DNA of 34,783 bases from Vicinamibacteria bacterium (GTDB lineage Bacteria > Acidobacteriota > Vicinamibacteria > Fen-336). Under the pieces are notes generated by a model that saw nothing but the letters and a program-made list of their open reading frames with translations, ran no database searches and was not told where the DNA came from. The position numbers and the translations under genes are program-made. The number at the start of each line of letters is the position of its first letter. Within the stretch, counting starts at the first letter, position 1. Positions 5,535 to 16,909 of this stretch are shown here, piece after piece. The stretch spans positions 1-34,783 of the forward strand of contig DATMML010000068.1 of NCBI GenBank assembly GCA_035570235.1, written 5' to 3'.

Positions 5535-5595
5535 GCGTTCACGTTTGGCGCCCGCGTGCGCCAGGCGATAGCATGTGCGCCGGGAGGTGCGGAAG

Positions 5596-6729
5596 GTGCC
5601 CCAGACGCGGCTCGTGCCCATGGTGGACTTGAAGGCCCAACTGGACCGCATCCGGCCCGAGATGGAGGCCGCCATCGGGAGGGTGCTCGCCACCACCTGT
5701 TTCGTGGGGGGGGAGGAGTGCGACCTCTTCGAGCAAGAGTTCGCGGCCTACTGCGGGACCACCCACGCTTGTGGTGTGGCTAACGGCACCGACGCCCTGA
5801 CCCTCGCCCTGCGGGCCTACGGCGTGGGGCCGGGAGATGAGGTCGTGACGCCGGCCAGTACGTTCATCGGCACCGGGGAGGCCATCCTCTTGAACGGGGC
5901 GCGGCCGGTCTTCGTGGACGTGGACCCCCAGACCTTCACCATGGACGCCTCCCAGGTGGAGAGAGCCCTGAGCGCCCGGACCAAGGTCATCCTGCCCGTT
6001 CACCTCTACGGGCACCCCGCGGATATGGCGGCCCTCAACGGGATCGCCCGCGGTCGCGGTTTGCCCGTGCTGGAGGACGCGGCCCAGGCCCACGGGGCGG
6101 AAGTGGAGGGCCAGCGGGTGGGCAGCCTCGGCCACGCGGCCTGCTTCAGCTTCTATCCGGGCAAGAACCTGGGGGCTTTGGGCGATGCGGGAATGGTCAC
6201 CTCCCGCGACGGCGGCTTCATCGCCCGCGTGCGCCAGCTGGCCAACCACGGCGGGGGCGCGGACAAGTATGACAACGTGGTGCTCGGCACCAACAGCCGG
6301 CTGGATGCCCTTCAGGCCGCGGTCCTGCGCGTCAAGCTCCGCCACCTGGACCGCTGGAACCAGGAACGGCGTGAGCGGGTGCAGGCCTACACCGAAGCCC
6401 TGGCCGGCCTGCCCTCCGTTCTCCTGCCCCGCGAGCGGGCGGGGGCCCGCTCCGCCTGGCACCTTTTCACGATCCGAACCAGCGCGCGCGACGCGCTGAA
6501 GGCGCACCTTCTCTCCCAAGGCATCGCCGCCGCCGTGCATTACCCTCGGCCCATCCACCTCCAGCCGGCCATGGCCACGGCGGGAGGCCGGCCGGGCGAC
6601 CACCCGATCTCGGAGGCGCTCTCCCGGGAGGTTCTCTCCCTCCCCCTCTACCCCGAGCTGCCGGAGCCCGAAGCGCGGCGCATCGCGGACGAGGTGAGGA
6701 GCTTCTGCACAGCCGCGGTCCGAAGCTAA
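5596..6729 (+). CDS. DegT/DnrJ/EryC1/StrS family sugar aminotransferase
   Basis: A 377-residue PLP-dependent enzyme that transfers an amino group to a keto-sugar, usually a nucleotide-linked one, for polysaccharide, O-antigen or antibiotic sugar synthesis. Visible family marks are the N-terminal PMVDLKAQ, GTDAL (phosphate binding), VLEDAAQAHGA (Asp contacting the pyridine N), and SFYPGKNLGALGDAG, in which Lys190 should form the Schiff base. A C-terminal HYPxPIH-type element (VHYPRPIHLQPA) is present. The start chosen is GTG at 5596, because GGGAGG lies 8 nt upstream. GTG at 5575 would add seven residues. No other nucleotide-sugar genes are nearby, so its pathway is open. Confidence 0.93.
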   Translation: MPQTRLVPMVDLKAQLDRIRPEMEAAIGRVLATTCFVGGEECDLFEQEFAAYCGTTHACGVANGTDALTLALRAYGVGPGDEVVTPASTFIGTGEAILLNGARPVFVDVDPQTFTMDASQVERALSARTKVILPVHLYGHPADMAALNGIARGRGLPVLEDAAQAHGAEVEGQRVGSLGHAACFSFYPGKNLGALGDAGMVTSRDGGFIARVRQLANHGGGADKYDNVVLGTNSRLDALQAAVLRVKLRHLDRWNQERRERVQAYTEALAGLPSVLLPRERAGARSAWHLFTIRTSARDALKAHLLSQGIAAAVHYPRPIHLQPAMATAGGRPGDHPISEALSREVLSLPLYPELPEPEARRIADEVRSFCTAAVRS

Positions 6730-10753: not shown

Positions 10754-11869
10754 CTACAGCGTCCGGCGGTACTCTACCAAGCCCTGAACGCAGGAATCCA
10801 CGTCCTGCTCGGTGTTGAAGAAATGAGTAGCGATCCGGATTCCCTCCGGTCGCTCCGTCACCGAAATCCCGAGCTCCTTCAAGAACGATCTAGCCCGTCC
10901 CGGTTCCGGCACCAGGCAGAGGGTCTGACCCGACCGGTGGTCACCCCCGGGCGACAGTACCTCGAAGCCTTGCTTGCCCAGCCGGAATGTGAGGTACATG
11001 TTGAGGGCGAGAACGCGATCGGCGATGGCGCCGGTGCCGATGCCCTGGATGTAGTCGACGGCCGCGCCCAGGGCGAAAATCTGCGCAAACGCAGGGCACC
11101 CCATTTCCGTTCGGCGGTTCCCGGGCAGGAGTCGGATCTGGCGGTTGTCGAAAGCGAACGGGTCCTCCACGCTCAACCATCCGATGGCTCGGGGGGGACG
11201 CGCGCCCAGGATCTTGCCGCTCACATAGACGAACCCCGTCCCGTACCCGGCGCACAGCCACTTGTGGCCGGTCGTGGCCAGGGCGTCGATGCCACTCCGC
11301 CGCACGTCCACCGGGAACGCTCCCACCGACTGGCTGCCGCACACCACAAAGTGTCGGTCCCCCTTCAGGGCCCCGAAAGCGCCTAGATCCTGCCGGCAGC
11401 CGTTAGAGAACTGCACGTGGCTGATCGCGATGGTGGACGCGCGGGGAGCCTGTTCGAGCGCGAAGGATTCCAACCGGAGCACACCCTCCACCGCAGGCAT
11501 GAAATGCACCTTCGTCCCGCGGTGTATCCAGGGCAGAGTCACGGTTGGGAACTCAAGCTCGTCGGAGAGGACGGGGCCGTCCTCGCCCAAAAGGTCCACG
11601 ATCAAGTTGATCCCGGTCGAGGTGTTGGGCACGAAGGCTATCTCCTCAGCCTCCGCCCCCACGAGGCGCGCGACCTTCGCGCGCACCGTCTCCCTCATGT
11701 CGAGCCACTGGTCCCAATCCCCGTCACCGCCGCTCTCCAGCGAGCGGTAGAAGGCGTCGACCGCCTCGCGCACCTGCCGTGGTGGGGGACCGGCAGCGGC
11801 CGCGTTCAGGTACACGTGGCTCTGGAGACCTGGAAAGTCCTGCCGGACTTCGTCCCAGGGAGAGGCCAT
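10754..11869 (-). CDS. Class V aminotransferase-fold protein with Cys at the PLP Asp site
   Basis: A 371-residue PLP-dependent fold-type I protein of the NifS/CsdA/isopenicillin-N-epimerase-like group. It begins WDEVRQDFPGLQSHVYLNAA and has NTSTGIN (phosphate loop), HVQFSNG, and TTGHKWLCAGYGTGF with Lys203 as the expected Schiff-base lysine. The residue normally Asp in 'VDGAQSVG', which pairs with the pyridine nitrogen of PLP, is Cys177 here (VVCGSQSVG, codon TGC at 11341-11339). A desulfurase active-site cysteine loop is not evident. Lyase, epimerase or non-catalytic roles are possible. ATG at 11869 was chosen. GTG at 11896 would add nine residues. It is divergent from the TPR gene. Confidence 0.88.
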   Translation of the reverse strand: MASPWDEVRQDFPGLQSHVYLNAAAAGPPPRQVREAVDAFYRSLESGGDGDWDQWLDMRETVRAKVARLVGAEAEEIAFVPNTSTGINLIVDLLGEDGPVLSDELEFPTVTLPWIHRGTKVHFMPAVEGVLRLESFALEQAPRASTIAISHVQFSNGCRQDLGAFGALKGDRHFVVCGSQSVGAFPVDVRRSGIDALATTGHKWLCAGYGTGFVYVSGKILGARPPRAIGWLSVEDPFAFDNRQIRLLPGNRRTEMGCPAFAQIFALGAAVDYIQGIGTGAIADRVLALNMYLTFRLGKQGFEVLSPGGDHRSGQTLCLVPEPGRARSFLKELGISVTERPEGIRIATHFFNTEQDVDSCVQGLVEYRRTL

Positions 11870-11999
11870 AGGGGACGAGAATACCGCAAAAGACACGGGG
11901 TGACTCGGCCTCTCGACCGCGGGAGCGGCGGGGCAGCGCTCGGAGTCGCAGGGCGATGACTCCCCCGTTCAAGCGATCCGGTCCCACTGATAAAGAACT

Positions 12000-13459: not shown

Positions 13460-13548
13460 GCCGGAGTGGCGAAACTGGCAGACGCGCGGGACTCAAAATC
13501 CCGAGAGCTTCCAAGCTCGTGTGGGTTCGATTCCCACCTCCGGCACCA
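13460..13548 (+). tRNA. tRNA-Leu (anticodon CAA)
   Basis: The acceptor GCCGGAG (13460-13466) pairs with CTCCGGC, followed by A and an encoded CCA (13546-13548). The anticodon stem CGGGA/TCCCG encloses loop CTCAAAA with anticodon CAA at 13494-13496, which reads UUG. A long variable arm (GAGCTT-CC-AAGCTC) marks a class II tRNA, and the T arm is GTGGG-TTCGATT-CCCAC. All stems pair. Confidence 0.97.
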
Positions 13549-13879: not shown

Positions 13880-14230
13880 GTGGCTGCACAGTATGTCCCA
13901 GAGCGGGGAGAGATTGTCTGGCTTGAGTTCAACCCTCAAGCGGGTCATGAACAGGCAGGCAGGCGTCCAGCACTGGTTGTCTCGCCGGGCTCGTACAACC
14001 GGAGGGTTGGTCTGGCCCTCTTCTGCCCCGTCACCTCGCAGGTCAAAGGGTACCCGTTTGAGGTTGCGCTTCCCCCTGGACTGGAAGTGCAGGGCGCCAT
14101 CCTGTCGGACCAGGTGAAGAGCCTTGACTGGCGCGTCAGGAGGGCACGGCAAATATGCAGGGTCCCACGTTCGGTCTTGGATGAGACAATGGGGCGAATC
14201 CTCGCGTTAGTCGATCCGGATGCTCGCTAA
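13880..14230 (+). CDS. mazF: MazF-like endoribonuclease toxin
   Basis: A 116-residue toxin of the PemK/MazF family, which cuts mRNA at short sequence motifs and halts growth. The N-terminal RGEIVWLEFNPQAGHEQAGRRPALVVSP is diagnostic in form: Arg28/Arg29 and Thr52 (CPVTSQ) fall where the catalytic Arg and Thr of E. coli MazF lie. LSDQVKSLDW follows the usual dimer strand. Full length and without frame damage, so it is probably active. GTG at 13880 starts immediately after the antitoxin stop. The cleavage sequence cannot be predicted here. Confidence 0.93.
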   Translation: MAAQYVPERGEIVWLEFNPQAGHEQAGRRPALVVSPGSYNRRVGLALFCPVTSQVKGYPFEVALPPGLEVQGAILSDQVKSLDWRVRRARQICRVPRSVLDETMGRILALVDPDAR

Positions 14231-14599
14231 GAAGCATCTCTGGACTCCTCCGCAAAGAGAAAAAGTTGCCGGCGGCTAACGGGATCGGCAATAAGCGCCC
14301 CGCCTGCAGTCTGGTTTCGCCAAGCCGGCGAAATAGAGAGTCCTCCGGTTTCTCAAGTCGCTGCTTCTGAAGAGGTTCGGCTCCCAGAACTGCCCGCTAG
14401 GACCGCGTCGCCCCAAACGTCCGTGTGACGGCGCCCACAGCCGCTCCCCCGTCCTGCGGTAAAATTCTTCACGGCGGCGAGTCTTCCCGTTCTTCCAGGT
14501 TCGGGCGGAGACGCCGGGCTGCTCGTTGCGGTGGACGTGGACTAACGAACCCTCTCCAGGTGGGGACGAGGACCAACGTACTTTTTCCAGGTGGGGGAC
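14231..14599. other. Intergenic region with one hairpin, no gene seen
   Basis: This gap between mazF and the propeller gene holds one good hairpin (14315-14333) and otherwise nothing I can support. The long minus-strand frame crossing it is a shadow of the propeller gene. GGTGGGGG just before 14600 is that gene's ribosome site. Confidence 0.5.
14315..14333 (+). terminator. Hairpin downstream of mazF
   Basis: TTTCGCC (14315-14321) and GGCGAAA (14327-14333) form a 7-bp stem with loop AAGCC, about 85 nt after the mazF stop. It has no T-run, so termination is plausible but not certain. Confidence 0.4.
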
Positions 14600-16909
14600 A
14601 TGGAATACGGCATGGCCGGCCGTTCGACCGTACGCGTCGCGCTCGCGTTCACTTTGGTCTGTCTTGCGGCCCTCCCCACCTGGGCGTCGGATTGGTTCCA
14701 CTTCAACTTCGACGCACGCCACAGCGGGAACAACACACAGGAGACGGCGATCAACGCGGCCAACGTCTCGACCCTCCACGTGCTCTACCACGTCTCGCTG
14801 CCCTCGATTGCTGACGGAGCACCGGCGTTCCTTTCCGGGGTGGCGACCCCGTCGGGGACCAAGGACCTCCTCTTCCTCAACACCAAGGACGGCCATATCC
14901 TGGCGCTCGACGCGGCGACTGGAGCCACGATGTGGTCCCACCAGCCGGCAACAGGGCCGAACTACACGACCTCCTCCCCCGCCGTCGATCCCGGCCGCCT
15001 CTTCGTCTACGCCTACGCCTTGGATGGAAAGGTGCACAAGTACCAGGTGGGGGACGGCACCGAGATCACGACGGGTGGCTGGCCCGAACTCGCCACGCTG
15101 AAGCCGGACGTTGAGAAGGGCTCCTCCGCCCTGTCGGTCGTGACGACGGTGGGCGGCACGACCTATCTCTACGTGACGAACGGCGGGTATCCAGGGGATG
15201 CCGGCGACTACCAGGGACACGTGACCGCGATCGACCTCGCAACCGGTGCCCAGAAGGTCTTCAACGCGAACTGCAGCAACAATGCCGTGCATTTCGTGGA
15301 AGGTGGAACGCCCGATTGCCCGCAAGTGCAGAGTGCGATCTGGGCGCGAGTCGGTGTCGTCTACGACTCCGACAACGACAAGATCTTCATGGCGACGGGC
15401 AACGGCACCTTCGACGCGTTCATGACCGGCAAATTCGACTGGGGCGACAGCGTGTTCGCCCTGCACCCCGACGGGACCGGCAACGGCCTCGGCCAGCCCG
15501 TGGACAGCTACACGCCGACCAACTACCAGGCCCTGCAGAACGGCGACGCCGACCTCGGCAGCACGGCACCGGCCATTCTCCCGGTGCTGCCCGGCAGCAA
15601 GTTTGCTCACCTCGGGGTACAGAGCGGCAAGGACGCATTGATCCGCCTCCTGAACCTCGACAACTTGAGCGGTGCGGGAGCCCCCGGTCATACAGCCGGA
15701 GAGGTGCAGACGCAAGCTGTGCCGCAAGGCGGAGAGGTGCTCACGGCACTCGCGGTCTGGACGAACCCCGCGGACAACGGAGTGTGGGTATTCGTTGCAA
15801 ACGGAAGCGGCATCTCGGGGCTGCAGGCGACCGTGGACGGGTCGGGTAACCCGTCCCTGGCTTCCAAATGGAGCGACTCGACCGCGGGAGCGTCCCCCAT
15901 CGTGGCGAACAGCATCCTCTACTATGCAAGTGCCGCGGGGGCGCGCGCACTGGACCCCGTGAAAGGCACTCAACTGTGGAGCGCGAGCATCGGAGGCGTC
16001 CACTGGGAGAGCCCGATAGTGATCAACGGCCACCTTTTCGTCACCGACGAGGGCTCCCAGCTCTGGGCTTACGGCCCCACCAACAGGGACCGCGCCATCG
16101 ACTTCGACGGGGACCACAAGACGGATCTTGCGGTCTTCAATCCCTCAAGCGGCTTGTGGTACATCCGCCACTCGTCGGACGGCTCAGTCGCCACCGTGGG
16201 CTACGGGGGCACGGGGTACATTCCGGTGCCGGGGGACTATGACGGGGACGGGAAGACCGACATCGCGGTCTACCACCCGCCGTCCGGGCTGTGGTTCATC
16301 CGATACTCGTCCACGGGTGTGGACACCGTGACGGGGTTCGGGGGTACAAACTACGTTCCGGTGCGGGGGGACTTCGACGGGGACGGGAAGACGGATTTGG
16401 CCGTGTTCCACGACCCGACGGGGATATGGTTCATCAAATACTCGTCGACGGGGACTGTGGTGACGGTGGGATACGGGGCGACGGGCTACATACCGGTTCC
16501 GGGGGACTACGAGGGCATTGGCAAGACGGACCTCGCGGTCTACTACCCACCGTCGGGGCTGTGGTTCATCCGGAACTCGTCGACGGGGGCGACGACTACG
16601 GTCGGCTTCGGGGGAACGGGCTACACCCCGGTTCGGGGAGACTTCGATGGAGACGGCAAGAACGATGTCGCCGTCTTCAACGATGCGACGGGGCTGTGGT
16701 TCATCCGGAACTCGTCGACGGGGACGGTGGTGACGGTGGGATACGGGGCGACGGGCTACATACCGGTTCCGGGAGGCTACGAGGACATTGGCAAGACGGA
16801 GCTCGCGGTATACCATCCGCCCACGGGGCTCTGGTTCGTGCGCTCCTCGCTCAACGGAGGGACCACCACGACTGGGTTTGGAGGCCCGGGTTTCAACCCC
16901 GTGAACTAG
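14600..16909 (+). CDS. Secreted PQQ-like beta-propeller protein with FG-GAP/VCBS-type repeats
   Basis: A 769-residue exported protein. A signal peptide occupies about residues 1-29 (VRVALAFTLVCLAALPTWA|S). Residues 30-495 form a quinoprotein-like propeller with recurring DG.ILALDAATGATMWSH, GHVTAIDLATGAQKVF and ARALDPVKGTQLWSA blades of the PQQ_2 type. No clear PQQ or metal site was identified, so a binding rather than a dehydrogenase role is likely. Residues 501-769 are six 45-residue repeats starting D(F/Y)DGDGKTD, a calcium-loop pattern, of FG-GAP/VCBS type. The start is ATG at 14600 after a GGTGGGGG site. GTG at 14591 is also possible. It stands alone and is likely cell-surface or extracellular. 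Confidence 0.88.
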   Translation: MEYGMAGRSTVRVALAFTLVCLAALPTWASDWFHFNFDARHSGNNTQETAINAANVSTLHVLYHVSLPSIADGAPAFLSGVATPSGTKDLLFLNTKDGHILALDAATGATMWSHQPATGPNYTTSSPAVDPGRLFVYAYALDGKVHKYQVGDGTEITTGGWPELATLKPDVEKGSSALSVVTTVGGTTYLYVTNGGYPGDAGDYQGHVTAIDLATGAQKVFNANCSNNAVHFVEGGTPDCPQVQSAIWARVGVVYDSDNDKIFMATGNGTFDAFMTGKFDWGDSVFALHPDGTGNGLGQPVDSYTPTNYQALQNGDADLGSTAPAILPVLPGSKFAHLGVQSGKDALIRLLNLDNLSGAGAPGHTAGEVQTQAVPQGGEVLTALAVWTNPADNGVWVFVANGSGISGLQATVDGSGNPSLASKWSDSTAGASPIVANSILYYASAAGARALDPVKGTQLWSASIGGVHWESPIVINGHLFVTDEGSQLWAYGPTNRDRAIDFDGDHKTDLAVFNPSSGLWYIRHSSDGSVATVGYGGTGYIPVPGDYDGDGKTDIAVYHPPSGLWFIRYSSTGVDTVTGFGGTNYVPVRGDFDGDGKTDLAVFHDPTGIWFIKYSSTGTVVTVGYGATGYIPVPGDYEGIGKTDLAVYYPPSGLWFIRNSSTGATTTVGFGGTGYTPVRGDFDGDGKNDVAVFNDATGLWFIRNSSTGTVVTVGYGATGYIPVPGGYEDIGKTELAVYHPPTGLWFVRSSLNGGTTTTGFGGPGFNPVN
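16100..16906 (+). repeat. Six tandem 135-bp (45-aa) repeats
   Basis: Units begin at 16100, 16235, 16370, 16505, 16640 and 16775. Odd units read DF..AVF..VGYG.TGYIPVPG and even units DY..AVY.PP..GFGG..PVR, so the real duplication unit is 270 bp. Units 4 and 6 have lost the DGD calcium-loop residues (DYEGIGKTD, GYEDIGKTE). Confidence 0.92.

Follow-up and report, generated by a model that had tools for sequence, protein, structure and literature searches.

In nearly all fold-type I enzymes, an aspartate keeps the pyridine nitrogen (N1) of PLP protonated. The locus described here raises the question of what a class V protein of this fold does when that aspartate is replaced by a cysteine, and whether the replacement belongs to a single genome or to a lineage. 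The gene lies in a window of 34,783 nucleotides (the whole stretch of DNA analyzed), one contig of a 5.7 Mb, 138-contig genome that is 99.6% complete and whose named nearest relatives are Vicinamibacteria and Acidobacteria metagenome assemblies.

The gene and its cofactor site

The mechanical open reading frame (10754-11896, minus strand) begins at a GTG 27 bases upstream of an ATG at 11869; orthologue alignments placed the start codon at this ATG, which gives a protein of 371 residues. PF00266 (Aminotran_5) is the sole Pfam family found on the protein at E 0.001 (E 2.8e-32; 112.5 bits against a curated cut-off of 21.5), and a promoter and terminator scan around the 10754-11869 gene found none. 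An AlphaFold2 model (alignment of 56 sequences; cofactor-free single chain) reached a mean pLDDT of 95.8 and a pTM of 0.93. Its best solved match was 5b7u (Z 46.1, rmsd 2.1 over 363 residues), and predicted model and match together place the protein in the fold-type I (aspartate-aminotransferase superfamily) fold. The features discussed below are as follows; counts refer to distinct proteins of the clade without the aspartate, defined in the next section.

10754-11869, minus strand: Aminotran_5 (class V, fold-type I) protein of 371 aa, start codon ATG at 11869 (open reading frame, PF00266, orthologue alignments)
11339-11341, minus strand: codon 177, TGC, Cys in the column of the Asp that pairs with the pyridine nitrogen (sequence and alignments)
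11261-11263, minus strand: codon 203, AAG, Schiff-base Lys (sequence; Lys in 58 of 59)
11330-11332, minus strand: codon 180, CAG, Gln of the GSQ motif (sequence; Gln in 59 of 59)
11549-11551, minus strand: codon 107, TTC, Phe in the column of the SufS His (Phe in 58 of the 58 with the column filled)
11606-11626, minus strand: NTSTGIN phosphate-side loop, residues 82-88 (alignments)
11177-11179, minus strand: codon 231, TGG, Trp, invariant in the clade (59 of 59)
10835-10837, minus strand: codon 345, CGG, substrate-carboxylate Arg (Arg in 59 of 59)

A previous sequence-only reading of this DNA had claimed that residue 177 is Cys where Asp is expected, and that the Schiff-base lysine and the phosphate loop are retained. 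Both claims hold. The plus-strand letters gca at 11339-11341 read TGC on the minus strand, residue 177 being counted from the ATG at 11869, and the resulting Cys, in the context VVCGSQSVG, aligns with the Asp of the 'VD-[GA]-[AC]-Q' motif in solved cysteine desulfurases and with an Asp in the genome's own SufS-like paralogue (L004). Five further matches to the Cys177 protein were found in the window genome at E 0.001 or better, and all four paralogues aligned out of these five (L002-L005) have Asp at the site. Lys203 and the NTSTGIN loop are in place. The protein has the Schiff-base lysine of fold-type I PLP enzymes and departs from their other usual hallmark, the aspartate on N1, which occurs in 0 of the 59 distinct clade proteins; this aspartate does not define the fold type, to which SepSecS, with Asn in that motif, also belongs.

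Gln180, by SufS structures, presumably contacts the O3' of PLP, and the SufS histidine in the column of Phe107 is, we assume, the ring-stacking one. Judged by alignment, Asn88 (kept in 57 of 58 non-Asp proteins) appears to stand in the column of the asparagine that supports the aspartate in other fold-type I enzymes, a role described for this column in a fold-type I threonine aldolase (PMC5986058); the same source gives binding of the substrate carboxylate as the superfamily role of the Arg345 column.

Distribution and history of the aspartate loss

To establish how far the loss extends, we read the aligned site across three groups of genomes. Among 193 genomes of the window's class, Vicinamibacteria, 19 had a match at E 1e-80 or better; 14 of these fall in the clade, with Cys in 7, Ser in 5, Ala in 1 and Val in 1, and the other five fall outside it, all with Asp. 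Of 162 genomes in the Blastocatellia (the class of G139, assigned from its named relatives), 62 matched at E 1e-85 or better, and the 41 clade-type places fetched (E below 1e-95) from 39 of those 62 genomes all carry Asn. Asn was also found in 14 of 14 matching genomes of the phylum Bdellovibrionota (that of L060, as its record gives it), out of 290 searched at E 1e-70 or better. Other phyla were sampled less evenly. In a scan of named genomes, 41 loci gave Asn 15, Ser 5, Cys 4, Ala 1, Val 1 and Asp 15, and tblastn of plasmids returned 386 records, all below 60% identity to the query, of which two of the 15 listed were read at the site (H1, Streptomycetaceae; H2, Salinirubellus) and have Asp.

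Over 116 distinct proteins the tally is Asp 57, Asn 45, Cys 7, Ser 5, Ala 1 and Val 1, with Asp in 57 of 57 proteins outside the clade (sister and outer relatives). The trait common to the clade is therefore not cysteine, which is present in only 7 of its 14 Vicinamibacteria genomes and which we rejected as a fixed character, but the absence of Asp: Asn in Blastocatellia and Bdellovibrionota, and Cys, Ser, Ala or Val in Vicinamibacteria. The sequence-only reading had asked whether Cys is fixed in a clade, and it is not; the outcome it named as fatal, Asp in all close homologues, did not occur, Asp being found in no close homologue. A search of open-licence PMC articles found no report of a class V clade without the aspartate, and on that search the clade, whose class V, fold-type I proteins occur in two phyla, is undescribed.

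Several other apparent replacements were discarded. An independent change of Asp to Cys in another Acidobacteriota family (L095-L097) was seen in the tblastn projection and was a gap artefact, the multiple alignment giving Asp; projected Tyr (L031, L034), Met (L027), Val (L003) and Leu (L076) all proved to be Asp in the multiple alignment as well.

The history of the loss was examined in a tree of the 94 proteins that remained of the 116 distinct ones once near-copies and partials had been excluded; it was built by a quick method, with the trait column removed and with SH-aLRT as the only support measure. A 61-row group (SH-aLRT 100) unites the Asp-bearing sisters, the Bdellovibrionota Asn proteins and the Acidobacteriota non-Asp proteins; within it, support is 98 for the Asp sister clade (8 rows), 96 for Bdellovibrionota (14 rows) and 99 for the non-Asp proteins of Acidobacteriota (39 rows), and inside the last the Vicinamibacteria form one clade of 12 rows (100). 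The free tree requires two changes between Asp and non-Asp. Forcing all non-Asp rows together gave an equally good tree (p-AU 0.50; 89 of the 94 rows, five distant or long-branched rows removed), so that monophyly of the non-Asp clade is not rejected and a single ancestral change from Asp to Asn is as likely as the free tree. In the reading that we favor, the aspartate was probably lost once, first to Asn. Although the tree is unrooted, Asp is much the more likely ancestral residue, because every outer relative sampled has it, as do nearly all fold-type I enzymes; Cys is a later state confined to Vicinamibacteria.

Codons at the site are GAC or GAT for Asp, AAC or AAT for Asn, AGC, TCC or TCG for Ser, and TGC for Cys. 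The codons of living relatives therefore spell a path of single-base steps, GAC-AAC-AGC-TGC, with each stage alive today, from which we infer that Ser came before Cys. The statement that Asp to Cys needs two base changes is right as to the distance between the codons, and relatives alive today with Asn and Ser span that distance. The gene is under purifying selection in the clade, with dN/dS (simple counting method) of 0.105-0.274 in 10 of 13 pairs, the other three being saturated.

Proposed chemistry and alternative explanations

What such a protein may catalyze is suggested by work on other PLP enzymes. In PMC6424897, transaminases are described as using Asp on N1, serine dehydratase and aspartate racemase as using Cys, and serine racemase, tryptophan synthase and OASS as using Ser. 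More generally, fold-type I enzymes are said to place Asp (sometimes Glu) on N1 and fold-type II enzymes Ser, Thr or Cys; quinonoids are reported only with an acidic N1 partner, and transamination is held to lean on N1 protonation more than elimination or racemization does (PMC6424897; PMC6411801). The aspartate is identical across 31 fold-type I structures (PMC3870968) and, with the Lys and Arg, was called invariant in an alignment of 9138 fold-type I sequences (PMC5986058), yet here a whole lineage is without it.

On balance, we favor the following explanation as a whole: the clade lost its aspartate, probably once and by way of Asn, and consists of PLP enzymes with an unprotonated N1 and a chemistry other than transamination. 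The Asp would have gone first to Asn and then, in Vicinamibacteria, Asn would have been replaced by Cys or Ser and, more rarely, by Ala or Val. PLP would still form a Schiff base with Lys203. From Asn, Ser or Cys, N1 would receive at most a neutral hydrogen bond, so N1 would be unprotonated and a long-lived quinonoid disfavored; the reaction would therefore be an alpha,beta-elimination or replacement, a racemization or an aldol/lyase reaction on a small alpha-amino acid, rather than a transamination. Elimination may serve as a first guess, because most natural enzymes that carry Ser or Cys (fold-type II) or Asn (SepSecS) there catalyze eliminations or racemizations. By this analogy, the clade probably runs a reaction unlike that of ordinary aminotransferases.

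Some observations count against this proposal. Neither Ala nor Val (one genome each) can form a hydrogen bond with N1, so parts of the clade manage without a specific N1 contact, and one clade member, described below (L014/L039), has lost the lysine as well. In the threonine aldolase, replacing the Asp by Thr, Ser, Val or Asn abolished the internal aldimine and cost most of the activity, yet the variants still formed the external aldimine and carried out aldol synthesis (PMC5986058). The retained synthesis speaks for the proposal; with the internal aldimine and most activity lost, however, the change in the clade could equally mean weak PLP binding.

The reaction type rests on analogy because no neighboring gene points to a pathway. 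Gene context was compared in 47 loci from four groups, with Pfam names assigned in one representative each for Vicinamibacteria and Blastocatellia and the Bdellovibrionota neighbors compared as sequences. Beyond scattered single loci, no neighbor gene is consistently common to the phyla in these 47 loci, and no operon among them explains the substrate. Downstream of the window gene and on the same strand lie CarD, HU, PlsC-like and PilZ genes, likewise found in most Vicinamibacteria loci compared; in Blastocatellia the gene has LysR and SSF transporter genes as neighbors, along with genes for a BadF-type kinase and a MurQ-like protein with a SIS domain. Each of these sets resembles local synteny. 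The Blastocatellia set (L048 6172-10727 and kin) looks like an amino-sugar recycling cluster. Elsewhere in the window, on the plus strand, are a second fold-type I PLP enzyme, a DegT/DnrJ/EryC1 aminotransferase (5575-6726), a PemK/MazF-like toxin from a toxin-antitoxin system of type II (13880-14227; PF02452), and a protein of 772 residues that combines a PQQ-type beta-propeller with FG-GAP repeats behind it (14591-16906). A tRNA-Leu(caa) gene at 13460-13548 lies just before that of the toxin.

The sequence-only reading had offered two outcomes, an unusual reaction path or a PLP-binding regulator. We favor the first; the second finds little support, PF00266 being the only Pfam family on the protein, Arg345 present in 59 of 59 clade proteins and the neighbors different in each lineage.

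The alternative that survives best, which we nonetheless consider unlikely, is that the Vicinamibacteria branch is, or is becoming, a pseudoenzyme or a PLP-free or PLP-sensing protein, with nothing to hold residue 177 in place. Four different residues occur at the site in its 14 genomes, as opposed to the uniform Asn of Blastocatellia (41 of 41) and Bdellovibrionota (14 of 14), and some members are odd elsewhere. One gene seen in two loci (L014:1501-2610 and L039:919-2028) has lost the lysine (Gln, CAG), the aspartate (Ala, GCC) and Thr83 (Ala) together and keeps an open frame; from its sequence, it is a candidate pseudoenzyme and may mark one lineage in which catalysis has truly been lost. 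Another (L012/L042) has Gln for His202, and a third clade member (L010:15-1121 and L038:15-1121), left out of the alignments used for structure and counted at the site, has one in-frame TGA, through decay or assembly error. Against free drift, all 14 proteins of the branch keep Gln180, Trp231 and Arg345, 13 of them also keep the lysine, and dN/dS is 0.105-0.274 for seven pairs inside it, including 0.253 for the Cys/Val pair L016/L017. Retention of these four residues together with purifying selection argues that this is no ordinary decay, although non-catalytic offshoots of the clade may exist.

Somewhat less probable still is that the protein performs ordinary aminotransferase-like PLP chemistry with N1 protonated by another group, such as His151, Glu106 or a residue of the partner subunit, which is absent from the predicted model. 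His151 is found in every one of the 13 Vicinamibacteria proteins that could be scored and in 29 of 31 from Blastocatellia; Glu106 occurs without exception (58 of 58) in the non-Asp proteins. However, His151 is patchy in Bdellovibrionota (only 4 of 14) and Glu106 is usual in relatives that keep the Asp, so neither looks like compensation; the fold-type I partner is, moreover, described as Asp, rarely Glu (PMC6411801). The sequence-only reading had allowed that another Asp might have taken over the role, and we found no newly conserved acid to stand in for the lost one among the columns of the non-Asp clade. Only four columns there are more than 90% Asp or Glu (76, 106, 188 and 356), and since these are acidic in most Asp-bearing relatives too, no acid was gained.

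That the protein is a variant Suf/Isc-type cysteine desulfurase is very improbable. SufS/CsdB-type desulfurases (5b7u, 1t3i, 1jf9 and others) are its best fold matches, with the same fold at Z 44-46 and 23-29% identity, and they share with it the Lys, Gln, phosphate-loop and carboxylate Arg columns; the NCBIfam model TIGR01979 gives it 115.4 bits. This score is far below the model's cut-off of 475.1, no suf gene is among the named neighbors, and the desulfurases have both the N1 Asp and a catalytic-Cys loop, whereas the window protein has neither: relative to L004, the C-terminal loop is deleted. Because this catalytic Cys loop is missing, the protein is no SufS-type desulfurase. Finally, an isolated mutation, misassembly or misalignment, conceivable when the first observation came from a single genome, is refuted by independent assemblies in two phyla without Asp at the aligned site.

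Comparison with known systems

Close relatives that keep the aspartate form an Acidobacteriota sister clade (L020, L021, L088-L093, L118) at 34-37% identity to the window protein (8 of 9 measured). The two clades are sister groups in the tree and share Trp231 and Ser233, whereas the sister clade has Asp at the site and Tyr for His202, each in 9 of 9. In three of seven sister loci (L193, L194, L195) the gene directly downstream is, on our reading of its sequence, presumably nitrilase-like, a possible pathway clue for the sister family. A lineage with Asn, Ser, Cys, Ala and Val forms beside close Asp sisters amounts to a natural mutagenesis series, and it bears on the long-argued question of how far N1 protonation decides the reaction of a PLP enzyme.

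Within fold type I, SepSecS (O-phosphoseryl-tRNA selenium transferase) has Asn at the place of the Asp. This Asn, in an NNAYG motif, presumably contacts N1 of PLP, and the enzyme swaps a phosphate on serine. The likeness is confined to one residue and to the Asn relatives, and does not extend to the Cys or Ser forms; the SepSecS Asn lies 32 residues before the Schiff-base lysine, compared to 26 in the window protein. SepSecS was not among the best 60 of 62 PDB sequences matching the window protein, and the SepSecS family model PF05889 does not match the window protein at E 0.001, the genome's PF05889 hit (G000:C61, 25 bits) being another protein. SepSecS is described as a separate fold-type I branch that acts on tRNA (PMC11602143).

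The fold-type II enzymes named above (serine dehydratase, aspartate racemase, serine racemase, OASS and tryptophan synthase) have Cys or Ser opposite the pyridine nitrogen (PMC6424897). Their fold is unrelated, and the likeness to the clade is one cofactor contact. Our broadest interpretation, held more tentatively than the explanation favored above and at somewhat under even confidence, is that a fold-type I lineage in two phyla operates with an unprotonated N1, its N1 partner having walked from Asp to Asn to Ser or Cys with every step still living, away from transamination and converging on the solution of fold-type II enzymes.
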